Source of the DNA: Coemansia sp. RSA 922
Lineage: Eukaryota > Kickxellomycota > Kickxellomycetes > Kickxellales > Kickxellaceae
Direction of reading: 5' to 3'
NCBI GenBank assembly: GCA_027577415.1
Contig: JANBQS010000006.1
Span: 1 to 64,000 of the forward strand
Length of the DNA: 64,000 bases
In this document: positions 16,953 through 38,954 of the stretch, one piece after another
Layout of the letters: each line of letters opens with the position of its first letter
Position numbering within the stretch: the first letter of the stretch is position 1
Notes under the pieces: model-generated
Databases searched by the model: none
Told to the model about the DNA's origin: nothing
The model's input: only the letters and a program-made list of their open reading frames with translations
Position numbers and translations under genes: made by a program

Positions 16953-17399
16953 TCAGCGCCACTGCATGGAATTATTGCTATGTAAATATTCCTTTGGATT
17001 TTCTTTGGTATCATTGTCTAGTGATCTGACTCTGTTTAGTTCTCTCTAGGTTCAATTGGTTTATTTTTGCACCTTTGGATATAGTACTGTTTTTTTTTAG
17101 CCATGCGTAAAAAAATTTTACACACTTTAACATTTATAAATAATATTTTTTGACACTGCTCCACCACTGTGGTTGTGTTGACTACATAATGAGTGTCATT
17201 AAGGAGAGAGGGGGACAAGCGTAAAGCAGCTGTTAAAAAGAAAGTATTTTTATTATTCAAAGGATGGTAATCAATTGATCCTGATTGTGCCCATAGAAAG
17301 AGACGATGACGGTTAAAGATAAATTTAAACGAGTACTTTTTTTAAACAATTAATATTTTTTATTTTACAATAATCGTGAGCTTTTTATTTTTATTCGGT
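16953..17399. other. intergenic upstream of SF3B3
   Basis: AT-rich sequence with no recognised gene. Confidence 0.45.
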
Positions 17400-20300
17400 A
17401 TGTTTCTTTATAACCTGACGCTTCAGCCAGCGTCGGCTATAGGCTCAACAGTGCTAGGTCATTTCTCCGGTGAGAAGCACCAAGAACTAGTAGTAGCACG
17501 TGGACAACAACGACTGGAGCTATGGCGGCCTGACACTACTACTGGAAAACTAAGTATTGAGCATTCCGAAGACCTATTTTGTCGAATTCGCGGACTCTCC
17601 TCGTTTCGTATGGCAGGTGGTAGCAAGGACTATATAGTATTAGCGTCTGATAGTGGAGCTATAGCCGTACTCGAATTCAACAGCAAAAGCCGGCGATTCG
17701 TTACCGTACAGTACCATGAGTTTGGACGCACTGGATTAAGACGACTAGTAGCTGGACAATATGTGGCATCTGATCCGCGTGGACGGGCGGTAATGTTGGC
17801 GGGAGTGGAGCGATCCAAGATCGTATATATAATTACGCGTGACTCTGAGGCACGACTCATGTTGGCATCTCCGTTGGAGGCCAATCGGTCTGGCAGTGTG
17901 TGCTTTGACGTAGTGGGCGTGGATGTCGGGTACGAGAACCCAGTGTTTGCCGCTATTGAAAGCTGCTATGAGGATTCGGAGGGCAGTGGGAAACAGCTGG
18001 TTTATTATGAGTTGGACTTGGGACTGAACCACGTCGTGCGTAAATGGAGTACTGCGGTAGGCGATACGGCACACAAGCTGATTGCTCTGCCTGGTGGCAG
18101 TGACGGGCCGTCTGGCGTGCTAGTGTGCATGGAGGGAAGCATCGAGTATAGGCATTTCACTAGCACTGGCGAGATGGCTGTGTACTCGGTGAATATCCCA
18201 CGACGCGCCAATCTGCTCAATGACACTCGTGGGCTGATGATCGTGGCGAGTGCGGTGCATCGTATGAAGAACGCGTTTTTCATCCTGGCACAGGCAGAGT
18301 CTGGCGACCTGTACAAAATCACGGTGGATTTTGCCGAGGACAGCGTGAGACGCGTGGGCATAAAGTACTTTGACACACTAGCTACGGCAGCATCCAGCAT
18401 ATGCATCCTGAAGGCCGGCTTTCTGTTTGCTGCTGCCGGCGGCGAATCAGGCGGCAGTCACCAGCTGTACCAGTTTGAGAACCTCGGCGATGACGACGGC
18501 GCGTGTTTCTCGGCTGAGGGGCTTTCGTATTTCCAGCCGCATGAACTAAGCAGCCTGGCGCTTGTGGACGAGATTGAGGGCGCATGCCCCATGCTCAAGA
18601 GCCAGGTGCTGCATGTGGCGGTGGGCGAGGACGCGCCGCAGATCTACGCGGCGTGTGGCACGGGCGCAAGGTCGTCGCTGAAGATTATGCGGCATGGAGC
18701 CGAAGTGTCGGAACTCGCCGTCTCCGAATTGCCTGCCACGCCGCGCGCCGTGTGGACCGTAGGCGGCAGTGATCTGATTGTCGTTAGCTTTGCGGGGTCC
18801 ACGCTGGCGCTCGCCATGGGCGAGGGCGACGAGCTGGCCGAGGCCGACAATGCATTGGGGCTGGCCTTGGACGAGGCCACGCTGGCTGTGTGCGGAGTCG
18901 AGGGCGGAGGCATTGTGCAAGTGACGCCCCGTGCTGTGCGCCACGTTATGTCTGACGGGCGGGTCACCGAGTGGGTGCCGCCAATGGGCGTCATTTCCTG
19001 CGCGGCTGTCAATACCCGCCAGGCCGTCGTGGCGCTGGGCAGGTCGGGCGAGTGCGCGTACTTTGAGATGCACGCGGGCGTGCTACGGGAGCACGCTGAG
19101 CGACTTGCTGTCGGCTCGGACGTCACGTGTGTGGCGTTGGCGCCTATCCCCCAGTCGCGGCTGCTGGCGCCGCTGGTGGCCGTTGGGTGCGAGGACCAGA
19201 CGGTGCGCGTGCATGCGTTGGAGCCGCACCGGTGCCTGGAGGCGCTGAGCATGCAGGCTGTGGCTGACGTGGCGCACGCCGTGGCTGTTGTGGACCACGG
19301 GCTGGGCGATCTGGCCATGTATGCGGGGCTGAGGAATGGGCTGCTGGTCCGTGCGCAGGTGGACCCTGTGTCAGGCGACGTGGACGATACGCGGACTCGG
19401 TTTCTGGGCGCACGGCCCGTGCAGCTCTGCCCCTCGGGCCAGTCGGTCGTGGCGCTGTCGGCCACGCCGTGGCTGTGTCACGTGCAGCAGGGCCGTGTGC
19501 GATCCACGCCGCTGTCGTACGACATGCTGGACTACGTGGCGCCGCTGGGCGACAATCTGGTCTGTGTGGCGGGCGCTTCGTTGCGGATTCTGAGTATCGA
19601 CCGGCTGGGCGCGTCGGGAACGCTGACGTGTGCGTCGATTCCGCTGGCGTTTACGCCGCGCGGGTTCTGCGTGCACGACGTGTCCCGCTACTTTGCTGTC
19701 ATCGAGGCTGAGCACGGGCGTTGGGCGCCAGCGCACTATGCTGCCAAGCTCGAAGAGTCGGGGGCCGAGGACGAGGCTTTGCCGCCGGAGCAGTTCGGCC
19801 TTGTGCGGAATGCCGGTGGGTGGGCGTCGCTAGTGCGTGTGCTGAGTCCGTTTGACGGAGAGACTGTGTTCCTTGACGAGCTGCCTGCTGGCCATGCTGC
19901 CGTGTGTCTTGCGCCTGTAAGGTTTGGCAATGACAGCTATGTGGCTGTGGGCTGTGCTGTTGGCCTAAGCTTAAGGCCGAGATCGTGCGAGTCGGCGAGT
20001 ATTCGCTTGTACAAGTGGACTACTGACGGTACTGGTCTGGAGCTGGTACATGTGACGCCGCTGGACGATGTGCCGCAGTCGTTGATGCAGTTCAATGGCA
20101 TGCTGCTGGTGGCGGCAGGTCGCGGCTTGGCGCTGTTCGACCTTGGTATCCGCCGGCTGCTTAAAAAGGCGCAGTCGGTGGTTGCCCCGCATTTGATCTC
20201 ATCGGTGCACATTCATCCGACGCATCCCGATAGCTGGCTGTTTGTTGCGGATGTGCAAGAGTCGGTGCTTTTGGTGGCGTTTAACCATACAGCGCGAGCA

Positions 20301-20906
20301 TTCCATGTTATTGTCGATGACTCGCTGCCCAGGTATATCACTAGTATGCGGGCGTTGGAGGATGGGTTTACGGTGGTGGCGGGCGACAAATTCGGTTCTA
20401 TATTTGTGTTGAGGGCGCCTGAACCTGTTGTCAAAAGTCTTGATGTGGATCCTACTGCTGCTCGCCTGCTTTATGAGAAGCCTACGAGATCCGGCGCTGA
20501 TATAGCGGCTCATTGCTGGCAGAGTGTGGCGGAATTTCATCTTGGCGATATTGTCACCTCTATTGATGTCTGTGCGCTGGCGCCGCATGCTAGACCGGTT
20601 ATTCTCTATACTACGATATTGGGTGCTGTGAATGTCGCCGTGCCAATGGTGAGCCAGAGTGATGTAGATTTTTTCTTGGCACTCGAGGCTGCTATACGCA
20701 AACACTGTCCGCCCATCTCTGGTCGTGACCACCTATCTTATCGCTCGTCTTTTATGCCCGTTAGATCTGTCGTGGATGGAGATCTGTGCGAGTCATTTTA
20801 CTTGCTTAGTCATGAGCAACGTGAACTGGTTTCTGATACTGTTGATAGGACGCAACAGGATATATTAAAGAAAATGGAGGATGTTAGATCCATGTTCGCT
20901 TTTTAA
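17400..20906 (+). CDS. SF3B3: splicing factor 3B subunit 3 (SF3B3/Rse1)
   Basis: The ATG at 17400 gives M-F-L-Y-N-L-T-L-Q, the canonical start of the family; an in-frame GTG 24 nt upstream is not used. The product has 1168 residues, slightly shorter than the usual ~1215. It is a three-beta-propeller scaffold of the U2 snRNP SF3b complex. Clear family blocks include G-G-x-K-D-Y-I-V-L-x-S-D-S-G near residue 75, E-L-D-L-G-L-N-H-V-V-R-K-W, G-G-S-D-G-P-S-G-V-L-V-C, A-V-S-E-L-P-x-x-P-x-A-V-W-T-V, and the C-terminal G-R-D-H-L-S-Y-R-S and V-x-D-G-D-L-C-E-x-F. The middle of the gene is markedly more GC-rich than its ends. Its 3' end is convergent with the uL22m gene, 17 bp apart. Confidence 0.95.
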   Translation: MFLYNLTLQPASAIGSTVLGHFSGEKHQELVVARGQQRLELWRPDTTTGKLSIEHSEDLFCRIRGLSSFRMAGGSKDYIVLASDSGAIAVLEFNSKSRRFVTVQYHEFGRTGLRRLVAGQYVASDPRGRAVMLAGVERSKIVYIITRDSEARLMLASPLEANRSGSVCFDVVGVDVGYENPVFAAIESCYEDSEGSGKQLVYYELDLGLNHVVRKWSTAVGDTAHKLIALPGGSDGPSGVLVCMEGSIEYRHFTSTGEMAVYSVNIPRRANLLNDTRGLMIVASAVHRMKNAFFILAQAESGDLYKITVDFAEDSVRRVGIKYFDTLATAASSICILKAGFLFAAAGGESGGSHQLYQFENLGDDDGACFSAEGLSYFQPHELSSLALVDEIEGACPMLKSQVLHVAVGEDAPQIYAACGTGARSSLKIMRHGAEVSELAVSELPATPRAVWTVGGSDLIVVSFAGSTLALAMGEGDELAEADNALGLALDEATLAVCGVEGGGIVQVTPRAVRHVMSDGRVTEWVPPMGVISCAAVNTRQAVVALGRSGECAYFEMHAGVLREHAERLAVGSDVTCVALAPIPQSRLLAPLVAVGCEDQTVRVHALEPHRCLEALSMQAVADVAHAVAVVDHGLGDLAMYAGLRNGLLVRAQVDPVSGDVDDTRTRFLGARPVQLCPSGQSVVALSATPWLCHVQQGRVRSTPLSYDMLDYVAPLGDNLVCVAGASLRILSIDRLGASGTLTCASIPLAFTPRGFCVHDVSRYFAVIEAEHGRWAPAHYAAKLEESGAEDEALPPEQFGLVRNAGGWASLVRVLSPFDGETVFLDELPAGHAAVCLAPVRFGNDSYVAVGCAVGLSLRPRSCESASIRLYKWTTDGTGLELVHVTPLDDVPQSLMQFNGMLLVAAGRGLALFDLGIRRLLKKAQSVVAPHLISSVHIHPTHPDSWLFVADVQESVLLVAFNHTARAFHVIVDDSLPRYITSMRALEDGFTVVAGDKFGSIFVLRAPEPVVKSLDVDPTAARLLYEKPTRSGADIAAHCWQSVAEFHLGDIVTSIDVCALAPHARPVILYTTILGAVNVAVPMVSQSDVDFFLALEAAIRKHCPPISGRDHLSYRSSFMPVRSVVDGDLCESFYLLSHEQRELVSDTVDRTQQDILKKMEDVRSMFAF

Positions 20907-26072: not shown

Positions 26073-28888
26073 CTAACCTGACTCTGCAATGAGTGGAACC
26101 AGCTTGCGCGAGGGAACTGATATGCCATGGAGCGCCTGAGTATGCTGGAATCGCTTATAGTCGTTAATAAGCCAAATTCCCTCTGGCGATTGCTTCATGT
26201 CAATATTGGCAAAGTTGGTCTTGTTGAGCGTTGCATATTTAGCTGCCTTGTCAGCGCTGCTAATAGCCATTTGCAAGGCATTTGCAATCTTTGACAAGCT
26301 CTCAAATACGATTCCAGGGGCTTCTACATTGACATCAGTGGTATTTGCCACTTCACTCACTTTGCTTGACACAGACGACACCTGCTTGGTCATATAAAGC
26401 GCGCTTAATTCAGCAAGCAGCGACTCAATGCTGCTTGATGCATCTGCTGATGATACAAAGGATTGGACATCCACAATGCTCAGACCCGTGTGACCTTCAG
26501 AGCGCAAGGATCCGTACAGGGCAAGAATTGTACTCGGGTACATTTCAAACTCTTCAGTTGTTGGCTGCCAGGTCTTGGCGGATGACATTTGCATGTCAAG
26601 TCGTGTGTAGCCTTGCGCGGTGTCTTCATTTACATACTTGTCCCAGAATGCAAGCAAATCGTCCTTGCTCAGCTGCTTGAGGTGCTCAACGTCCTTATCC
26701 ACTTTGTCAAAGCTGTACTTACCGGACTTGATATGGGCCCACAGTTCACCAAACTCTTCGTTTATCGAAGTTAGTTTCTCTTGCTTTAGACTGATTAGTG
26801 ACTGAACTGATGACTCAAACTCCTCTGCAGTCAGCTCCGCAGCTTTTGTCGATATTGGCGAATAAACTGGTTGATGCGCTGAGTTACATAAGCCGGATTG
26901 CTTTCTCCCTCCACAATAAATATGAGCGCTCCCTTTCCGGTTTTGTAGGAATCCAAAGTTGCTCCAACTCTGTAACCTAGCTGCTCAGAAGTCCTCAACT
27001 GTGCAAAAAATGAGTTGTGAACTAAATTCTCCAATACTCGAAGTGTGACTACATCTCGAGTATTACCTACAGATCCACAGTAGAACACACACATCACAGC
27101 GCTGTTCAAACACTTCTGGTCGCTAATTGGAACATTCTGGACATAATAACCAGGCTCAATGTCAAGTATGCGACCAGAATTAATTGAGGATCTAGAAACA
27201 GGCTGGAGTTGCAAAAGGTCAAGTACCTGATTGCTGGTGTCGAGTGCCGCTGACTGGTTATAGTTTCCAGACACGAGCATCTTCACATGGGCTTTGCTAA
27301 ATAGCAGCTCAGTATGTTTCTGAAGCCCATCTAGAGTTATACCCTTTAGCTCTTCTTCCAGCATGTCTTGGTCAAATGCAGGCACCATGTGGAGATTGTC
27401 CAGTTGCCTGAAAAGCTGTGAGGTAGGGCCATTCTGTCTTTGGCTCTGTATCATCCGTTCAACTTCCGCCAGGTAAATAGAAAACTGTTGGGTATCAACA
27501 TTGAAGGTCTTTATCTTTTGCAGTGCCGTCTTTAGCAAATTGGGTAGTCCATTGCTAAACCCAGATACTCCAACGTTAATAAGGCCTCCTCCTGGACTCA
27601 TATTAAAGTAACTGCTGGCCATCGAAGCGCTAAACAGCTGCTCTTGTAGTTCGGCCGATACTACCTTGCAAAGTAGAGTCGACAGCAAGTGGTTGAGTGG
27701 GGAATTGTCCACATATTCGGAGCTGATGGCTAGGCCAATGCGTCCATGAGGTGTAAAGAACTGGTCATCTTGCTTAAACCAGACTTCAATCTTGTCATTC
27801 TTTCTGAGAAGTACAGGCTCCAACGCAGGCGGATCGGCAATAGTGGCTGGCTTAGTGACTGATAGGTTTTCAGGCAAAAACTTATTGCGGCCAGGCAAGT
27901 GTAGCATCTTGGCAATGTTACGATTATACTTTACATCAGAAGTCATATGCGAAGGCAAGTCGCCAATAAGGTAGAGAACTCCGTAGTACTTTTCCTCAAG
28001 CCTGCACTCCACAGCCTTGTGCTCCTGCGCACCAATAAACAGGCGGTAGTTACTGGGGTTAAGGTAGCTTAGACACTTTGAAATGATGTCAGCATCATAT
28101 CTGCTAGCTAAATAGTTGTGTGACAATATGTGCTGTGGTGATACATATTGATTACGTCCTTCACCCGAAAGTCTGAGGGCATAGCTCATGGCATCCTCTT
28201 TATCTTTGAAAGCAAACCTGGCTTTGCTAACTAGAGATAGCTCTTTGAAGTACCACTCTTGAGGACCGCTCTCAACTAGCATCTTTATGTACCCAAATAT
28301 GACACTCACCATGGCTTCGTAGTTCTCCAGGCCTTCGGGTGTGGCAGTAACACTAATCTCATATGTGCTGAACCCGTCATAGAACGTGATAATGGAATAG
28401 CCTGAAGTAGCAGTGGCCCAACCATTCTCGCGCAACACTAAGTAAATCGATCCTGGCTCCTTGTGGCCTAGTAGAGCGTTGATATAAGCAAATGGCTTTG
28501 CACTATTTACCGACTTTAGTTCAGGAAGAGCAAACTCCAGCTTGAGTTCGTATTTTTTACAAACGGTCTTGTAGTGAACAAGCTTTCCTAGCTCGGCCTT
28601 ACCAATGGGGTGGAAATCAACCACAGGTCTAGTATTTCCCCTGCTTTCAATATCAGAAAACTTTGACGCCACCCACTCGGATAGCACCTCCAAGCTGTGG
28701 TTGCCGACCACCACTAAATGCATGATGTCTGCCGAGTAGTACTTGTGGTAGAACTTTATCAGCTCCTCACGCAAGTCCAAACCCAGTTCCTCAGCAGCAC
28801 CCTTCAGCGTCTCCGTGTTTCCTGTTGCAAACCAGGAGTAAGGATGTGCAGGATAGGTAGTTCCAGCAACAAGTTGATAAGTGCGGTG
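26073..28888 (-). pseudogene. insulysin-like (M16) metalloprotease, 5'-truncated and frameshifted
   Basis: Two consecutive frames (28888-26831 and about 26850-26073) together match the C-terminal three quarters of insulin-degrading enzyme/Ste23-type peptidases. Recognisable blocks are H-P-Y-S-W-F-A-T-G-N near 28840, L-L-G-H-K-E-P-G-S-I-Y, G-P-Q-E-W-Y-F-K-E, W-F-K-Q-D-D-Q-F-F, and R-T-S-E-Q-L-G-Y-R-V. The N-terminal domain with the H-x-x-E-H zinc site is absent: an in-frame stop occurs at 28889 and no homologous exon was seen upstream. Near 26845 a one-base loss shifts the frame just before A-A-E-L-T-A-E-E-F-E. It cannot encode an active protease as written. An assembly error could explain the frameshift but not the missing domain. 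Confidence 0.8.
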
Positions 28889-29034
28889 TCACGCAGAATT
28901 AGTCAAGATCACTGGATCAGCGAATTGGGCAAGGGTCTGCGGCTTAGCCGCAGTAGAACGTTGTTATTTAAAAAGAGTTTATTGTTGTTTACAAAATAGA
29001 ACTCTTTATCTTCTCTTTATATTTATCGGAATAC

Positions 29035-29169
29035 ATTTTAGTATCACATGCGGCGAGAGTCTAATTGCAAATAACCCTTGTATTCCAAGTCCACTGCCTT
29101 TAGTTCACGGTCAATGCAGTCAGTATTAAACAGTGGCAATATAAAGAACTGTGCATGTGATACTAAAAT
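29035..29169. mobile_element. MITE-like element with 17-bp terminal inverted repeats
   Basis: A 135-bp segment is bounded by perfect 17-bp inverted repeats (29035-29051 and 29153-29169, starting ATTTTAGTATCACATG on the outside). It has no coding capacity. No clear target-site duplication is visible. It lies just upstream of the insulysin pseudogene's broken 5' end. Confidence 0.45.
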
Positions 29170-29875
29170 AAATAAACTAAAGATTAAAGATAAGCTAGGG
29201 AGCTCTATTTTGATAACAACAATAAACTCTTAAATATAATTCTATTCTGCAGTCTAAGCTGCCACCCTTGTCCTGGACTGCTAAATCTCGTGATTACGAT
29301 TGATATTGCGTGACAACGTGGTTGCTTTTGTCCACAGTTATAGAAACTTACAAGTTCTACAAGATGTTGCCAAGCAAAAATATATTCAATAAATAATCCT
29401 AGACATGTGCAGTCAAAAAAGTTACACCTTACCTCCTTGTGTGTCTATTGAGCTCGGAGATGAGTTTTTAAAGGTTGGGAACAAGCAGTGGCACAAGAGC
29501 ATTGTTCCTGAGATTGCATATCTATAAGTTAGTGCTTACAGGTGCCCATTTTGAGGTGGAACCCAGGAATAGTGCCTATGCAGGGCACCAGAAGTAATTG
29601 GATCAGCTGTTTTGTGGATGGCAAAACAAGAGGAACCTGATTGACTTGATTGATAGCTTTTTTGGTTAACGAATGACTGGAATATAATTTATTTGAACAC
29701 GTCTTTTGATACTAATCACAAACAAATATTTATTTACATTATATTGACTTCTAATTGCTAAACTTGTCCAACTGCTACCAGGATGACATGTCAATTTATA
29801 AGCTGCCTAGTTAGCTTTAAAATAAGCGCATCTATTGATGATTGAGTTGTTTTATTACGCAACTACACGATAGCA
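29170..29875. other. intergenic with possible decayed coding sequence
   Basis: A 40-codon frame at about 29405-29527 (I-E-L-G-D-E-F-L-K-V-G-N) and a following protein-like stretch near 29540-29670 (H-F-E-V-E-P-R-N-S-A-Y, then N-K-R-N-L-I-D-L-I) are interrupted by stops. They look like relics but were not identified. Confidence 0.3.
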
Positions 29876-30300
29876 TTAACCAGGTTGGCCTTCTTCTCTC
29901 TTGGCTCTTTTACCAACTACAGCCAACCAAGCATCACACTGAACGTGTACATATCCTTTGATAAGCAATGCAAATAGCTGTTCAGCAGCCTCCACTATCT
30001 CCACAAAAAGGCTGTGAGAGTCCAGACAGGATCAGAAACAAGCATGACAAACCAGAACACAGGTTCAAACTGACCTGACACATTCACTTCATTAAACTTG
30101 GCAAACTTTTGCTATTGTTTGACCTTCAATATAGATACATCCAGTAGCTGTTCTATCACTGTATTGATCGTCTTTGCTTGGCAGAAAATGCTGTTGACAA
30201 TTTCTTGGGTACATGAAGAAAACAAAAGTGTTTGCAAACTTGGCAAGCACTACCTCAACCATGTAATATTCCTCAGTTCTATATTAGGCAGAGTATTAGT
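29876..30300 (-). pseudogene. unidentified gene relic
   Basis: On the minus strand a protein-like sequence runs from about 30300 to the stop at 29876 with two in-frame stops and one frameshift. Segments include L-Q-T-L-L-F-S-S, I-N-T-V-I-E-Q-L-L-D-V, F-E-P-V-F-W-F-V-M-L and F-V-E-I-V-E-A-A-E-Q-L-F-A-L-L-I-K-G. The continuous amphipathic character argues against chance, but I cannot name the family. It may be a helical-repeat protein. Confidence 0.35.
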
Positions 30301-30413
30301 AAAAGTATAGTTAGATTCAGTTTTGTTAATGGTTCAAACACTCAGTCCTCCTACATGTAGTACAAGTGTGAGTGATCCATTAACGGGATTAAGCTCTTTT
30401 AGTGGTCTTGTTG

Positions 30414-30600
30414 CTTTGACCTTTGACCTTTGACCTTTGACCTTTGACCTTTGACCTTTGACCTTTNNNNNNNNNNNNNNNNNNNNNNNNNNNNNNNNNN
30501 NNNNNNNNNNNNNNTTTGACCTTTGACCTTTGACCTTTGACCTTTGACCTTTGACCTTTGACCTTTGACCTTTGACCTTTGACCTTTGACCTTTGACCTT
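30414..30600. repeat. heptanucleotide tandem repeat (CTTTGAC)n with assembly gap
   Basis: At least 19 uninterrupted copies of the 7-bp unit flank a run of N, so the true length is unknown. Degenerate 7-bp units (GCTTTGC) continue near 30635. The array lies about 300 bp upstream of the orphan gene at 30893. A related array (GCTTTGA then CCTTTGG units) lies at the equivalent place before the gene at 33266. Confidence 0.85.
30467..30514. other. assembly gap (48 N)
   Basis: A run of N inside the heptanucleotide array. The gap size is probably an estimate. Confidence 0.95.
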
Positions 30601-30774
30601 CAAGATTTGAGTATCCGTAATGCCTTTAAGCTTTGCGCTTTGCGCTTTAAACAAGCCAAAAAGCATTAAACGAAATAGGGACTAAGGTGTTGTAATAAGG
30701 TAGAGAATGGTTGAAGATGATTTTAAAAGAAATCACCTTTTTTTACCTGATGTCGACTGCCATGACAGAAGTGG

Positions 30775-30782
30775 TATAAAAA
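30775..30782 (+). promoter_or_regulatory. TATA box of the 30893 orphan gene
   Basis: TATAAAAA is followed by GGTAGCCGCTAGGCGCCTAC. The same block, with one change, precedes the paralogue at 33266. Distance to the ATG is about 111 bp. Confidence 0.6.
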
Positions 30783-30892
30783 GGTAGCCGCTAGGCGCCT
30801 ACCCTCTCCTCCATTCTTTCCTTACTCTCTTCAACTCACTTTTTAACTATAAATTGCACTTCCTACTTTTGTTCTACTCATCTACAAGAATC

Positions 30893-31243
30893 ATGCAAGT
30901 CCCAGTGTATCGTTTTGCGACATATAATGCAGCTCCAGAGTTTGTTATGTATATTAACATAACCTGCGGGCATTGTGGAGACGCTACATCTCAAGCAGAT
31001 GCAATACTTACAACTATGAATTATAATAAAGGAGGTATGACGCCATCTTTTGTTAGCAATGGCGTTGTTTTTTCTTGGAAAAGTATTGTACAATATGCTG
31101 GCACTGAACTTGAAGGTCCTACATATTTTGTTCTTATGAATGGTTCAAGCTGGGGAGCATTTTTGAGGAATATTCCTAATAACGCAGACCAGTATAATCA
31201 TCTTATTGGCAAAATCAATCAAGTAGGACCAGCTCCTCAGTAA
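30893..31243 (+). CDS. small orphan protein, variable paralogue 1
   Basis: The product has 116 residues from the ATG at 30893 (M-Q-V-P-V-Y-R-F); in-frame codons upstream lie in the leader. It shows strand-like I-N-I-T-C-G-H-C, a helix, V-V-F-S-W and T-Y-F-V-L-M-N, then a conserved C-terminus W-G-A-F-L-R-N-I-P-N-N-A-D-Q-Y. Against the paralogue at 33266, the first ~84 residues are only about half identical, while the last ~32 differ at one position and the 3' UTR is nearly identical. No known domain or signal peptide was seen. It is part of a tandem duplication of about 1 kb units. Confidence 0.65.
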   Translation: MQVPVYRFATYNAAPEFVMYINITCGHCGDATSQADAILTTMNYNKGGMTPSFVSNGVVFSWKSIVQYAGTELEGPTYFVLMNGSSWGAFLRNIPNNADQYNHLIGKINQVGPAPQ

Positions 31244-31436
31244 TAACATTAATAGAGAACAAACGGCAGCGGTTTCAAGAACTCGGCTCTCTATACCAAT
31301 GCAGCTCTATTTTATAGGCCTCTAAGTATTAGATAGTCTGGAGTACAAGTAGTTTATATTTTTATACTCTCTCGTCAGTCTGGGCAAATAAATATCTAAA
31401 CCATTGCTGATGGTGTGAAAAGCAACCTGAAAAGCA

Positions 31437-32897
31437 ACTAACCCCGTAGATTTACAGTAGGGTCAAAACTGTCCCAATGTTTTTTTGATCCTGACTTCAA
31501 ATTCGAGTATCATCTTCCACACTTGCCCCATCGCTCTGAGACTAAAATAATTAGGATAGCTCATGGTTGATACTACCACGAATAAAAATATCTCTTTGTT
31601 CAATTAATTTCTGGCTAAGCTACTGGCATTTAAGCACGTATTTACCCTTTGACTTTGTTTTTCTTCAATATGTATGCAAATCGCTCCAGAGTCGCTTTCT
31701 CAGCAATCTTTCTTTTTGATATATTTTTTCTTTTTGGTTTTATTATTCTTGCCATCGGCACTAACTAGTAGTACACAAATTGTCAACTTTAAAACATTGT
31801 CTAGGAAATGGCTAAGAAAGCACCATCCATTAAATTATCAGGGTGTGCGGTTATTATACAGCTACCCTTGGATTCAGAGCTAGTCATGTAAAAGAAAAAT
31901 GGTAAGTGCCCACCACGTATCTCGATATGCCTATTATAAACACAGATCACTCCAAGATTATTTTGCAAAATGAAAGAACACACTTTCCTCAGCAGACATA
32001 TTCGGGAAACTTGCCATGGCTATAAACTCAAATAATGGCCTGGGTGACTATGTCAAAATATCAATCGCAGTGCAGATGACATGTCCCACACACACTTTCT
32101 TGTGGACAAGAATACAGTAAGAGCTGAAACATTTGATGGAAAGAGTGTGGATTGACTAATATTGGTTACATGGTACAAATCCTTGCCAATAGATTATTGT
32201 TGTCTTACAATATTACAATATATAGCAGCAAGCACCAACCTTTACTTTATCAGCTCAACAAGTGATATGATTTAGAGATATGTGATGGCTGCCTAGGAAT
32301 AATAACACAAATTATAAATAGACACAAATAAAAATTGTAATAGAAGTATGTGTGGATTCAAGGTATTGCATCACTACGATTTTGCATTGAAAGCTCTTGC
32401 CTGCAGTCAACAGCTGCAACCTATCTCCTACTGTCCTGATATTTTATGATAATTGTGATTGTCCATATTCGCTCAACTTACTCGTAGAGAGCTAAAGCAT
32501 TGTCATTGAAAAGCACCCATACTGCTGACACATGCTCCATATATGGCTATCATCAAATGCCACTTGTCTTGAAGGACGTGCTAACATCAAGATTGCAAGC
32601 TGATTTTAATAAGTAAGAGCAAGCTGTGGATGCAAGTGCAAAGTACACAATTCTGCTTTAGCTCGAAAGAATGCATAATGTATGTCGCTCTTACATCTTA
32701 TTATGTTCAAGAAGCCTAAAGGCTCAAGAGGAAGAAGAAGAGCTTTTGAAGGTTTGAAATACAAAAATCAAAAAACCCAAGATAACCTAGAGTTATTTTT
32801 CAAATACACATTGAATAGCCATTAGTAAGTTTAGGAAAAGAAACTCGTATTGGAAGTCGAAATTGAAAGATATTTGGACAGTTTTGCTTGTCACTGT
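31437..32897. other. intergenic between duplication units, possible relics
   Basis: AT-rich. Protein-like but stop-interrupted stretches occur on the plus strand near 32025-32150 (F-L-V-D-K-N-T-V-R-A-E-T-F) and 32490-32650 (Q-M-P-L-V-L-K-D-V-L-T-S-R). These may be decayed coding sequence; none was identified. Confidence 0.3.
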
Positions 32898-32955
32898 ACA
32901 AGTGTGAATAATCCATTAACTGGGTTAAGCTCTTTTAGCAGCCTAGTTTCTTTGT

Positions 32956-33021
32956 GCTTTGAGCTTTGAGCTTTGAGCTTTGAGCTTTGGCCTTTGGCCT
33001 TTGGCCTTTGGCCTTTGGCCT
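32956..33021. repeat. heptanucleotide tandem repeat, two unit types
   Basis: About four copies of GCTTTGA are followed by about five copies of a CCTTTGG-type unit. Both are one or two changes from the CTTTGAC unit of the first array. Confidence 0.75.
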
Positions 33022-33154
33022 TCAATATTTGAGTGCGCCAAAAAAACACTCTAGCTGGAGACTTCGACATACGTCATTCACTACGTCATGGTTCAGGGTA
33101 AAATTTAAAAGAAATGTCCCTTATTTGTCTGATGCTGACTGCTGTGACAAGTGG

Positions 33155-33162
33155 TATAAAAA
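33155..33162 (+). promoter_or_regulatory. TATA box of the 33266 orphan gene
   Basis: TATAAAAA is followed by GGTAGCCGCTGGGCGCCTAC, nearly identical to the block at 30775. Distance to the ATG is about 104 bp. Confidence 0.6.
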
Positions 33163-33265
33163 GGTAGCCGCTGGGCGCCTACTTTTTTCTTTCCTTACTC
33201 TCTTCACCTCACATTTCAACTATAAATTACACTTCCTACTTTTGTTCTACTCATCTACAAGAATC

Positions 33266-33616
33266 ATGCAAGCCCCAGTATATCTTTTGTCGAAATATCT
33301 AGGTATGGCAGAATTTGTTGCTAATATTACCATAAACTGTGCTCATTGTATTGATGCTATTGGAGAGGCAGATGCAAGACTTTTTGATATCAGTTATGAT
33401 AAAGGAGGTAAGACGTTATGTCTTGTTACCAATGGCATTCTTTATAGTTGGAGTGGTTTTATGGAAAATGCTGGCACTGGACTTGCAGGTCCTACATATT
33501 TTGTTCTTATGAATGGTGCAAGCTGGGGAGCATTTTTGAGGAATATTCCTAATAACGCAGACCAGTATAATCATCTTATTGGCAAAATCAATCAAGTAGG
33601 ACCAGCTCCTCAGTAA
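33266..33616 (+). CDS. small orphan protein, variable paralogue 2
   Basis: The product has 116 residues from the ATG at 33266 (M-Q-A-P-V-Y-L-L). The frame is open far upstream only because the 7-bp array reads through without stops; that part is not coding. It has the same length and layout as paralogue 1: I-T-I-N-C-A-H-C-I-D-A, a helix, I-L-Y-S-W, P-T-Y-F-V-L-M-N and an almost unchanged C-terminus. The two conserved cysteines flanking the histidine (C-x-H-C) are retained in both. Function is unknown. Confidence 0.65.
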   Translation: MQAPVYLLSKYLGMAEFVANITINCAHCIDAIGEADARLFDISYDKGGKTLCLVTNGILYSWSGFMENAGTGLAGPTYFVLMNGASWGAFLRNIPNNADQYNHLIGKINQVGPAPQ

Positions 33617-33938
33617 TAACATTAATAGAGAGCAAACGGCAGCGGTTTCAAGAACTCGGCTCTCTATACCAATGCAGCTATTTTATAGGCCTCTAAGTAT
33701 TAGATAGTCTGGAGTACAAGTAGTTTATATTTTTATACTCTCTCGTCAGTCTGGGCAAATAAATATCTAAACTATTGCTGATAGTGTGAAAAAGTAACCT
33801 GAAATGTGACGAGCCTCGTATATTTAGCTTTCCACCTAATTCTTTAAATCTACAGGAAGTATCCAAGTCGAGGCTGCGTCAAGCATGCCTGCCGAAGCCA
33901 CTCTCTTACAAGAAAGAAACAAACATTTATTAATAATT

Positions 33939-34133
33939 CTACTTGCGATGACACCGACAAAAGGCTGCAATACGCGCCCAGGCAGCACGTAAGACGTCGT
34001 GAGGCGGCGTAATCACCAAGCGCACAGTGCCCGGGTATGAGAAGCAATTACCAGATAGGATCTCAACACTCTCTTCCCACTTGAGTTTGCGACAAAAGTC
34101 TGCGTCGCTTGTAATGCCATCAAAGGCCGCCAA
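33939..34133 (-). pseudogene. tyrosine aminotransferase C-terminal fragment
   Basis: About 62 codons match the very end of tyrosine aminotransferase-type class I aminotransferases: D-A-D-F-C-R-K-L, then E-S-V-E-I-L-S-G-N-C-F-S-Y-P-G-T-V-R-L-V-I-T-P-P and A-W-A-R-I-A-A-F-C. In the family, this follows the catalytic region. There is no start codon and the homology ends abruptly near 34133 in AT-rich sequence, so the PLP-lysine domain is missing. It is a truncated relic next to the second duplication unit. Confidence 0.7.
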
Positions 34134-34670
34134 ATTTATTACATTTTATAGACAAAGTGAACTAGCGTAGGCCTATAAAATAATGTCAATAAATTAATAC
34201 TGGAAAGGTTAAGAGAAAATAAGAAAGGATGTCAACTGGTCAAACACGCACTATATTCAAAGTGCCAAACAAACCAGTGAACTGTGGGAACTGAACTGAG
34301 CAGAGTCGACATAGGACAATGGTACTGAGGGACAAAAGAGATAGTTAATAGAATACGTAAAATATAAATATCAAGTTTGTGTTTAACTTCTAATGAACTT
34401 AAAGCTTTAGAGAGAAAGGCAAGTGTTGTCAAGAGCTGTGAAAAGATGCCTGAACATTGTCGACAAAACCATTTGGGCAGTGTTTCAAACAAGCCTGGCT
34501 GTAGAACCGTTGGGCTGGCGACAATCGAGAGTAAACTGATTTATTACACTTTGCATAAAATAAAGTAAGAAAAATTTTGATTCTTTTTGGGAATTATTTA
34601 TGCTGGAGGTTTGCTAAAATTTTATCATGAACGTGGCCTATTGTCTATGTCGCAGTAGCTGCTGCTGTCA
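34134..34670. other. intergenic, no gene recognised
   Basis: AT-rich with short open frames on both strands that carry no recognisable motif. Confidence 0.4.
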
Positions 34671-35242
34671 CTAGTCTTCCAGTTGAAATGCCTGGCTCGC
34701 GCTGAAGCCGAAGCGAAAAAGTGATCGGCGGGCAGTTGGTGCTGATATTCGGCGCCACGAGAGTCGCTTGCTTGGTCGGGCTGCCTGATATTCGCGCAAT
34801 ACTTGCGGAAGGGGTTTTCCATCTTGTCCTACGAGGTAAAGCTTCTGTGCCTGAGGGTTCGCCAGCCAGACGTTTTCCACGCGCTGTTATTGACTTGACC
34901 TAGTCCTTTATCCCTAGGCTGCCAATAGCCGGATTCCACTCTCTGCCGCCAGATGTCATCTTCCTGCGCCCTGCGTGTTGCATCACTGACGAGGGACTCG
35001 TCCCATTTGATGGTGTTGTCGGTCGGACGCCAGCAGAACTTGCATCCAATTTCGCACGCGATGAAGGTCAAGTAAACAAAAGGCCAAACAGGCCTAATGC
35101 AGCGTGCAATGAAGTGTATGCCTGGGCAAAGGATATACGCACACTGTGTAAAAAGAAGCTTGAAGAGGGGTTTGGTGACCTCCAACGAAAAAGAAAAAAA
35201 AACAAGCACAAAAGAGAAGGATAGAAGAAAGGCGATGTCCAT
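34671..35242 (-). other. uncertain coding region, two frames
   Basis: From an ATG at 35242 an open frame begins with a hydrophobic segment and a second hydrophobic, cysteine-containing segment (C-A-Y-I-L-C-P-G-I-H-F and F-V-Y-L-T-F-I-A-C-E), then a charged part (D-E-S-L-V-S-D-A-T-R-R). Near 34890 the protein-like character moves to another frame (E-N-V-W-L-A-N-P, ending at 34671). This may be a gene with a missed intron, a frameshifted relic, or chance. A similarly GC-rich open stretch on the same strand at 35329-35600 could belong to it. Confidence 0.25.
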
Positions 35243-35600
35243 TTGGTATAATTTAATAGAAAATGAGATATGCTAACGAAGAGTGAAGAGGAAAAAATGG
35301 CAAAAAAAACGAGAAAGCACAGATATGCCTAAATACCCTTGCTTCTGCTGGTGCGGCTGTGGCGCCTGAACACGATGGAAGAAAGGTAGCTCTCCCATTG
35401 TGTCATGAGTATGGCGGGTAGCGGTTTTGCGTGCAGATCACGCATGGGGATGCCGGTTGGGGCAAGAGTGGCTTGCCAATAGCCGTGCATGTGGGGGCAC
35501 ACAACGGAACAAAATGAAACCCTTCCTCTTGGAAACAATGGGCGGTAGAATCATCTTGGCAGAATTTTGGTGGTCATATGGATGCCTCTCCCCGTCAGCT

Positions 35601-36245
35601 CCATACTCCTAAAAACATGCTTGTGAGGAGCTGTCTAAATTGTAAAGTCTTGTCTTTCACTTTGAAAAGAGAAATAGAGTTGTCCATATCCTTTAATGTA
35701 AATAATGTTACGATTTACCAGGCAATCATCCCCTAAATAAACTCCGACATCATGCAAAAAAATACAAGAAACTACACAAGGAGCAGGCTGGAAAGAACAA
35801 TCTAAGTAGTATACTTATTGTGTCTATTCGCCAGTGGTGAGTAATACGCTATCGCCAAACTATAATTATATACATTTTTGAATACCAAATATTGCCAATG
35901 AATATGCACTATAGTCTACACAGGAGTGTCAGCTGCCATGGCTATGATATTCTACGGAAACCTCAAAGGCACACACTGCACTGGAGCGAAATACTTTCAT
36001 CATATTAACAATTTAATGAAAAAGGATGAGTATAATTGCCTACTCGAGAACTCGGGGCGTGAGCTGCTCTAAGCAAGCGTCTGTCAATAAACTGGGTGTT
36101 ATTATTGTCAACGACCAGTACAGTCAGAGCCATGAGCGCAAAAACATCAATGACTTTAACCAGAACTTTGCTTTCGGTAGACAGTGTCATTCCAATAGCC
36201 AGATAGATTGCAATCATATTCATTTGGTTTGTACGTAATAAAAAA
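35601..36245. other. intergenic, no gene recognised
   Basis: AT-rich sequence downstream of RPB4. No feature was seen. Confidence 0.45.
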
Positions 36246-36926: not shown

Positions 36927-38954
36927 ATGGCCTCACTGCCTCCCTTCCAAACGCTGCCTATGCTGATCGTATTAAAAGTCGTTGATTATTTGGAGGAGCG
37001 TCCTAGAAACACGTTCGACACCGATATCGACATCGACCTTGTCGAGTATAACGAGGCAAATACTGTTTGCCCGCTTATCTGGGTTAGCGAGCGCTGGCGC
37101 GTGGCGGCGCTCAGCATTATTTGTGACAACTGCGAGGTTAACTTTGACAGCTCCCCTAGAGGTTTCAGCGTAAGTTATCCCGCGTTACCTTTATTGCCTG
37201 ACAACAACTCCTTTTCGCAGTATCATATGGAAAAGCTGGTCAAACGAGTTGTCGTGCTGGCCCCTAGTTGGAGCGATATCGGCAGTAGGAAGTTTAGAAT
37301 CACTCCATCTCTGCCAAAATTTCCGATTTTCCCGTCAGCCGCTACTCTGATGGTCTGCCTGGACGAGGACGACGTAAACCCTCAAAAGGCTGGGCGCGGA
37401 GTAGCCAATCCTGCTAGTGCCGCGCCGCCAAACCGGAATAAAGAGACAGTCGACTTTGTTCGTTCCATTCGCCGCCTGACTCCTGCCGCAACTGGCGTAG
37501 TCGTGTTCTTCCGCTCTCCCAGCTCGACTAATAAAAAGAACCGGGGACAGTGCAACACTCTGCTGTTGCAGTTATGCCAGGGAAAGACTACCCGTCTGCA
37601 CGTCCAATCGTGGACCGACTGTACTTTGTCATCGCTTAAGCTGCGCAGCGTATCGGGATTGACGAGTATTACGCAGGGACTCATTACGGCTTGCGCTCCA
37701 TTTGCGCAGCTCGCCTATCTCAACGCGGGCACACTAAAAGATATAAACCTCAAAAACGTCGATGAAAGCGACTGGCGCACTATAATCTATGGCGACACGG
37801 AGACTCCGGCGGTCTATAGCAGCTTGATAAAGTTGGGCTTGCTGCCTGCGGAAGCCCCTTACGATAGGACTTGGGCGGCTATTGAAGACGCAGTTTTGTT
37901 CCCCGCTTTGATCGAATTGGACGTGATGGACGACTATCCATTTAACGACGACTTGCTCTTTAGGGGTAACGGCAGGACGCTGCGGAAACTCTGCATTCCC
38001 TTTAGAGTACTCACTAAGAATGTCCTTGGCCGATTCAACGTGTTCAGTCGCAGTGGTGTTACGCGAATGAACTTGGTCGACATTGACATTGCAGCGCACC
38101 AGGATAGTGCGATTTTGCTTGGACAAGCAAGCACGCATATTGTGCAGCAAATCCATAGCATACTGGAAGCAACTACAATGCTGTATCTACAGGGCGACAC
38201 GGCCAATAGACATATGCTCAACGCCGTCAAATCCGCACCGGCCACTGCTGTTCTCCAATCCCTTGAGCTATACAATCCGCCACTCGACGCCTGCGATATA
38301 CTCACGATTATTTCGGCGATTCCGAGTCTTGTCACTCTAACTTGCGAGATAGATGGGTCTGTGGCAAGCATTGAGGCGCTATCGGCGAGCGAACATCCGA
38401 CTGCAATACATGAGAAGTATAGCTCATTGAACAGCAACTTTAGGCAGCTATACGTACTCGACGATGAGGACGACGATGATTATGAGGACGATTGGAGTGA
38501 TGAGAACGATAGTGTCGATTTACATGGCGTCCATGAATGTCCCTGTTGTGGCGGATTCCATTACGACAGTGAAGATGATATATTAAACGACATTTATGGC
38601 GACCACTACTATGGCGATGGCTATTCCGACATCGATGATGAAGGCGAAGATGTGGATGACGACGACGACGAGGATGACGACGAGTACGAGGATGTGGACG
38701 ATGAAGACGAAGAAGATCAGGGCGAGGATGATGACAAAGATGAGGCAGAGGTAGATGAAGCTGACAAAGACCTTTTGGCCAGGGAAATAGCTGTTGTCGC
38801 TGTACAAATTGCCGTGCTCTGTCCCAACTTTAAGCATGTGGATCTTCCGGAAGAAATGCGCAACGAGTTTAGTCGCGAGGTCGCTTTGGCCATGGCCAAT
38901 GGTCCGTTCCTGCCTTACGCTGACTCACTCGAACGCCTAATTTTCTCAGAATAG
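36927..38954 (+). CDS. F-box/LRR-like protein with long acidic insert, subfamily 3
   Basis: The 675-residue product starts F-Q-T-L-P-M-L-I-V-L-K-V-V-D-Y-L, an F-box-like helix, then S-E-R-W-R-V-A-A-L. Leucine-rich segments follow, with the shared signature Y-P-F-N-D-D-L-L-F-R-G-N near residue 335. From about residue 510 to 610 a strongly acidic, low-complexity region (D/E runs, with an H-E-C-P-C-C-G-G-F-H cluster inside) interrupts the solenoid. The family C-terminus (L-C-P-N-F-K-H-V-D, then S-L-E-R-L-I-F) then resumes. The acidic insert distinguishes it from all other members in the window. The histidine/cysteine cluster could bind metal; that is inference. Confidence 0.65.
   Translation: MASLPPFQTLPMLIVLKVVDYLEERPRNTFDTDIDIDLVEYNEANTVCPLIWVSERWRVAALSIICDNCEVNFDSSPRGFSVSYPALPLLPDNNSFSQYHMEKLVKRVVVLAPSWSDIGSRKFRITPSLPKFPIFPSAATLMVCLDEDDVNPQKAGRGVANPASAAPPNRNKETVDFVRSIRRLTPAATGVVVFFRSPSSTNKKNRGQCNTLLLQLCQGKTTRLHVQSWTDCTLSSLKLRSVSGLTSITQGLITACAPFAQLAYLNAGTLKDINLKNVDESDWRTIIYGDTETPAVYSSLIKLGLLPAEAPYDRTWAAIEDAVLFPALIELDVMDDYPFNDDLLFRGNGRTLRKLCIPFRVLTKNVLGRFNVFSRSGVTRMNLVDIDIAAHQDSAILLGQASTHIVQQIHSILEATTMLYLQGDTANRHMLNAVKSAPATAVLQSLELYNPPLDACDILTIISAIPSLVTLTCEIDGSVASIEALSASEHPTAIHEKYSSLNSNFRQLYVLDDEDDDDYEDDWSDENDSVDLHGVHECPCCGGFHYDSEDDILNDIYGDHYYGDGYSDIDDEGEDVDDDDDEDDDEYEDVDDEDEEDQGEDDDKDEAEVDEADKDLLAREIAVVAVQIAVLCPNFKHVDLPEEMRNEFSREVALAMANGPFLPYADSLERLIFSE

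Follow-up and report, generated by a model that had tools for sequence, protein, structure and literature searches.

The 64,000-nucleotide stretch analysed here (the window) comes from contig JANBQS010000006.1 of the fungus Coemansia sp. RSA 922 and contains a tandem pair of small orphan genes, gene a and gene b, whose coding parts differ more than the sequences beside them. The pair consists of two single-exon open reading frames (ORFs) of 116 codons on the + strand, starting at 30893 and 33266, 2.4 kb apart. In the shorthand used below, C6 is the contig of the window, C6a is gene a and C6b is gene b; other contigs are cited in the same manner. The features of the site are:

30414..30600, + strand: heptamer (CTTTGAC)n array 5' of gene a (Tandem Repeats Finder), interrupted by a stretch of N (30467-30514)
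30758..30892, + strand: conserved promoter and 5' untranslated region (UTR) of gene a; a 206-bp query containing this block matches nine places in the genome
30775-30784, + strand: TATAAAAAGG box of gene a (from matches in the window), 118 bp 5' of the ATG
30893..31243, + strand: gene a (C6a), single exon, coding for a 116-aa orphan protein with a predicted beta-grasp fold
30893..31108, + strand: hypervariable segment of gene a, codons 1-72, with 65 of 216 bases different from gene b
31109..31428, + strand: near-identical 3' block of gene a (codons 73-116, stop, 3' UTR with AATAAA)
31454..32890, no strand: intergenic stretch between genes a and b, missing in contig C14 (BLAST chain)
32950..33022, + strand: heptamer (CTTTGAG/CTTTGGC)n array 5' of gene b (Tandem Repeats Finder)
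33131..33265, + strand: conserved promoter and 5' UTR of gene b, 84% identical to the gene-a block over the aligned stretch
33155-33164, + strand: TATAAAAAGG box of gene b, at -111 from the ATG
33266..33616, + strand: gene b (C6b), coding for a 116-aa paralogue of gene a
33266..33481, + strand: hypervariable segment of gene b, codons 1-72
33482..33801, + strand: near-identical 3' block of gene b

The AATAAA lies 143 bases after the stop codon in gene a and 141 bases after it in gene b. The gap of undetermined bases at 30467-30514 falls inside the first heptamer array, which spans -479 to -294 of gene a; the corresponding array on C14 has a similar span (-490 to -303) and is free of gaps, so there is no call for a hidden extra gene there.

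The initial annotation had claimed that the coding sequence of this pair varies more than its own non-coding flanks, and this holds: against the 65 of 216 bases that differ in codons 1-72, the 135-bp 5' flank has 13 differences in 128 and the 190-bp 3' flank 5 in 188. At the protein level 41 of the 116 residues differ, 40 of them within the first 84, in agreement with the remark that only about half of the first ~84 residues are shared. The last ~32 codons had been called near-identical; the near-identity is right and the length too short, for the divergence drops sharply at about codon 73, leaving a C-terminal part of about 44 codons with just 2 differences in 132 bases (codons 73-116). Among the seven units of the family that have both flanks (C542m and C861, with 3' flanks that cannot be aligned, were excluded), the mean pairwise distance is 0.186 in the 5' flank, 0.370 in codons 1-72, 0.233 from codon 73 to the end and 0.120 in the 3' flank, and in none of 1000 site bootstraps did either flank reach the N-terminal segment. 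Partition speeds estimated with IQ-TREE for these units follow the same order (5' flank 0.85; 3' flank 0.53; codon positions 1-3 of the N part 1.85, 1.50 and 1.47, and of the C part 0.80, 0.94 and 0.77). As far as the aligned units represent it, the coding part is more divergent than promoter and 3' UTR across the whole family.

That family is large. In the assembly searched (20.4 Mb, 960 contigs) the orphan superfamily occupies at least 63 distinct places at E<=0.001, with both haplotypes counted; the number is a lower bound, merged by hand from several searches that included four further members and in which only the best candidates were scored. The places include clusters of six on C103 and five on C432. 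In-frame stops occur at five of the 63 (C437:2502, C195, C331:17292, C32:44555 and C432:11440), and this combination of many paralogues with some broken copies is that of a birth-and-death family. The promoter block matches nine places and the 3' block seven. The ORF is intact in all nine promoter-defined units, one of which encodes a protein only 18% identical to C6a, and heptamer runs are found in six of the nine by a regular expression covering up to 700 bp upstream (556 bp for C626). In an alignment of nine sequences the invariant columns are M1, Y6, A35, N56 and W87. The tryptophan reported as kept is therefore a family feature, and the C-x-H-C pair reported with it is not, since C28 is present in seven of the nine and the first cysteine plus the histidine occur together in three. 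A metal site or a thioredoxin-like C-x-H-C was accordingly rejected, the Thioredoxin_4 match (E 0.18) lying under the cut-off as well.

The history of the site can be followed by comparison with C14. The RSE1 protein used as a query finds exactly two places in the genome, on C6 and on C14, with proteins 98% identical, and a 10-kb segment of C14 aligns collinearly with the window, the aligned pieces being 85-95% identical. We take C6 and C14 to be two haplotypes or homeologues; a diploid, a heterokaryon, a mixed culture or a hybrid are alike possible. There are two family genes at this site on C6 and one on C14, where the BLAST chain passes straight from the end of gene a to a point on gene b's downstream side. 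The upstream flank of the C14 gene and most informative sites in its codons 1-72 are of C6a type, and from about +240 nearly all informative sites are of C6b type. Judged by these sites, the C14 gene is an a-to-b chimera, with the switch inside the block that is near-identical in C6a and C6b. Other copies are also mixed. The gene on C437 is mostly a-type but turns b-type between about +60 and +120, which supports the earlier idea of segmental replacement. C542p, on C542, lies between a match to the upstream side of a and a match to the downstream side of b and has mixed informative sites; a second, inverted family gene (C542m) is found about 2 kb away. An assembly artefact was considered and rejected: C437 and C836 each have flank matches that fit one of two slots, and this favours a genuine arrangement of two slots.

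The 3' flanks of C6a and C6b differ by a p distance of 0.027, whereas their distances to C14 are 0.116 and 0.096. Because they are more alike than either is to C14, the 3' end was probably last homogenised after the haplotypes had split, and the near-identical 3' block, on this sequence comparison, is a recombination tract. For the 3' end, these distances and the chimera on C14 bear out the suggestion that conversion homogenises the ends. The 5' block calls for a different reading. All nine dispersed units resemble one another there, including the one with the 18%-identical protein, and constraint on a promoter therefore seems a better explanation than recent conversion alone.

Positive selection on the whole N-terminal segment had also been proposed. 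Between C6a and C6b, the proportions of synonymous (pS) and non-synonymous (pN) differences in codons 1-72 are 0.287 and 0.305, with a ratio of rates (omega) of 1.08, and maximum likelihood (ML) gives an omega of 0.97 for the N part and 1.07 for the C part of five genes of a clade, 0.86 for three whole genes and 0.86 for eight genes (C542m was excluded as too divergent). Under the rule set beforehand, by which synonymous divergence as high as the non-synonymous speaks against such selection, the proposal is unsupported for the segment as a whole. Mean values of 0.86-1.07 would suit relaxed constraint, with dispensable duplicates drifting near-neutrally, ends homogenised by conversion, promoters alike through common descent and no role in any conflict; the in-frame stops at five of the 63 places point the same way.

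Site models give a different picture for part of the codons. The comparison of M1a with M2a on eight genes yields twice the log-likelihood difference (2dlnL) of 13.2 with a single tree, and with separate trees 9.8 for four segments (p 0.007) and 9.7 for two segments (p 0.008). In a parametric bootstrap of the two-segment model none of 60 null simulations reached 9.7, the maximum being 6.96, and leaving out one gene at a time on one tree gave values from 8.4 to 15.7. About 20% of codons fit an omega near 3, and about a fifth to a third are conserved. Positive selection thus survives for a subset of codons. Fourteen sites have a posterior above 0.75; 13 of them lie in loops or helices and one in a strand of the predicted fold (Fisher p 0.06), and the helix site pairs 62/66 and 85/89 are spaced four apart, as expected of an exposed face. 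A location of high-omega sites on loops and exposed helix faces is suggestive only, being read from models.

Two results weigh against diversifying selection. The site test is not significant within two single clades (2dlnL 4.0 and 3.6), and the pN of C6a against C14, 0.060, is below the pS of neighbouring genes. For these control neighbours (RSE1 whole, two others in part), C6 against C14 gives omega values of 0.09, 0.24 and 0.26 and a pS of 0.09-0.10, and for C6a against the C14 gene there are 3 synonymous and 16 non-synonymous changes (omega 1.47, Fisher p 3e-5). With pN below the neighbours' pS, this pair alone is no proof of positive selection, and the same comparison favours relaxed constraint. 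A test within the EYP clade gives 2dlnL 7.1 with a mean omega of 0.47; that for the MIY clade (24.9) was not relied on, C614b being truncated and the alignment gappy. Other presumed haplotype pairs have omega values of 0.15 and 0.20 (C22/C142), 0.50 (C240/C724), 0.84 (C715a/C599, with a third contig, C614, about equally similar) and 0.87 (C626/C836), from which it follows that clades differ in regime. A neighbour of the C22/C142 family genes, which we take to be R3H-like, has an omega of 0.14. Beside two family genes on these same contigs, at C22:30613-31050 and C142:17306-17743, both presumed haplotypes also encode a 146-aa protein (MPGPF...) with an omega of 0.50. C626 and C836 are 94% identical over 3.4 kb, yet their family genes are 61% identical in protein and in the opposite orientation to that stretch.

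Relaxed constraint has further observations to account for. All eight modelled ORFs are intact, as against a mean of 1.16 of eight in 300 neutral simulations, none of which kept all eight, with the reservation that the eight had been chosen as ORFs of 85-140 aa. Y6, N56 and W87 are invariant in the nine sequences, there is an excess of high-omega codons, and a coding part that outpaces its flanks is not given by drift alone. We regard relaxed constraint as an unlikely account of the family.

Structures were predicted for members of two clades, with predicted local distance difference test (pLDDT) scores of 85.7 and 89.2. The models have a beta-beta-alpha-beta-beta-beta topology with added helices, and their structural neighbours are mostly beta-grasp proteins with weak scores; the family fold is thus predicted to be a beta-grasp (ubiquitin-like), with the same topology as in PB1, DIX, FERM, ubiquitin-like and superantigen-like proteins. 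Foldseek against the Protein Data Bank (PDB) found no match at E<=0.001 for either model, the best two rows for one of them being the Hsp90 co-chaperone Cns1 (E 0.0024, template modelling score 0.36). The proteins are 105-160 aa long and end soon after the predicted fold. None of 23 members has the C-terminal Gly-Gly used for conjugation by ubiquitin-like modifiers, and no hydrophobic leader is visible by eye.

Searches for relatives by sequence were negative. A protein database search with gene a gave no candidate, and a profile of the 23 members against 5.8 billion proteins gave none at E<=0.01 among 346 candidates; the database includes many Coemansia proteins, but short single-exon genes may be unannotated and shared 5-residue words are needed, so this null is no proof of absence. 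RSE1 (17376-20906; Pfam RSE1/DDB1/CPSF1 propellers and CPSF_A) matches a partial record of Coemansia sp. RSA 2673 at 98% identity and Coemansia sp. S146 at 91%, followed by rows from Kickxellales. In Pfam, 11 families are matched by any of the 23 members at E<=1, the lowest value being 0.0048 and no family being matched by more than two members (HMMER filters drop most matches above E 0.1); none is a convincing relative, and the gene b candidates CoV_NSP15_M (E 0.041) and DUF6713 (E 0.19) are under the cut-offs. The PDB searched by sequence has a best E of 0.066, NCBIfam gives one family for one member (E 0.006), tblastn against plasmids finds nothing and our literature search found no paper on this orphan family. 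A phage or viral origin was rejected: PHROGs gave three families, each matched by a single member at E 0.0064-0.0095, and the fold search gave no viral match at E<=0.001. An RNA element in the 3' UTR was rejected too, as its first 80 bases in gene a have a fold z of -0.28 and Rfam has no match at E<=0.1 within 28000-36000 of the window.

The predicted fold does raise the question of effectors sent to another organism without a signal peptide, in the manner of Crinkler (CRN) header domains, which PMC5289972 describes as ubiquitin-like domains lacking true signal peptides. The family here is predicted to share the ubiquitin-like fold and, by eye, likewise lacks a signal peptide. Unlike Crinklers, its 23 members have no Pfam Crinkler match (the family is absent from the 11 matched at E<=1) and no C-terminal domain, for which, as a toxin, 105-160 aa leave little room. 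Coemansia species are mostly saprobes, and we know of no host for them. We consider export of this kind quite improbable.

TATA[AT]A is found at -111 to -127 in seven of the nine units. The TATAAAAAGGYNGC promoter motif has 17 matches in the genome against 4 for the reversed control, and six of the 17 are at family genes; eight of the 11 others were inspected, of which three are in a second small family and others 5' of unrelated ORFs, so that the motif is not family-specific. One of these ORFs is presumably a WrbA-like gene. The second family, with 110-115-aa proteins (MSLPLPP...) on C59, C109 and C157, has near-identical promoters, diverging coding parts and the same kind of TATA box, and the promoter layout is thus not unique to the orphan family. 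If the proteins served in stress or in dosage, being strongly expressed, free to vary at the surface and present in many copies for amount, then the TATA box with its pyrimidine-rich leader, the core motif at what we take to be a WrbA-like gene and the number of copies would all fit; such a role predicts neither codons near omega 3 nor strong divergence among copies, and we think it quite unlikely.

Two other differences between C6 and C14 lie outside the pair. At 26306-28608 in the window, 2.3 kb without a C14 counterpart covers most of an ORF for an M16 (insulinase-type) peptidase (26831-28780). At 36927-38954 there is a 675-aa protein with no Pfam match at E<=0.001, which to us resembles an expanded F-box-like family of Kickxellales; its C14 copy has one in-frame stop in the first 421 codons.

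Taken together, we hold it fairly probable that the pair belongs to a birth-and-death family in which copies cross over unequally and convert one another, the core promoter is conserved and part of the protein is under diversifying selection. On this view the pair is a single site among the many of a family of small proteins, each encoded by one exon and predicted to have a beta-grasp fold; sequence comparison shows its copies swapping ends through unequal crossing-over and gene conversion, and its TATA core promoter may be retained through selection for expression. The pattern of a variable gene with frozen flanks would then arise because a slowly evolving promoter and 3' UTR and an exchange of ends are combined with a coding part in which about a fifth of the codons fit an omega near 3. 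The proteins may be intracellular binders, with loops and outward helix faces that diversify against a changing partner (a parasite, a competitor or a non-self factor), and the family could then act as a recognition repertoire.

Similar patterns are described elsewhere. In the sea urchin, PMC8634487 names conversion and unequal crossing-over as processes behind such families as the SpTransformer (Sp185/333) immune genes, which like the genes here are clustered beside short tandem repeats and unequal in number between alleles; they encode animal immune-response proteins with element patterns, in contrast to fungal proteins with a predicted beta-grasp and no visible signal peptide. The HYP effectors of cyst nematodes likewise have a hypervariable coding part between conserved stretches, but according to PMC11228951 HYP1 and HYP3 vary in motif order, at single-gene loci and with conserved stretches that are coding, whereas the present family is dispersed, varies by point differences and has conserved non-coding flanks.

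An intracellular recognition role is suggested by the pattern itself, by the lack of a visible signal peptide and by analogy with families such as SpTransformer, and an effector, allorecognition or immune role, as initially proposed, may apply. More specifically, and tentatively, the tens of genes with one kind of core promoter might form a cytosolic repertoire of ubiquitin-fold proteins with which Kickxellomycete fungi serve allorecognition or defence, which we hold to be doubtful. To our knowledge few recognition or defence gene families have been described in early-diverging fungi, and we know of no such system in the Kickxellomycete lineage. The family has many copies, differs between the two haplotypes of a single genome and has no convincing match in Pfam or in the protein database searched, which includes Coemansia proteins; its single-exon layout makes it easy to test. 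On C6 and C14 a chimeric gene stands opposite its two parent types, so that the exchange that shapes the family can be read base by base.
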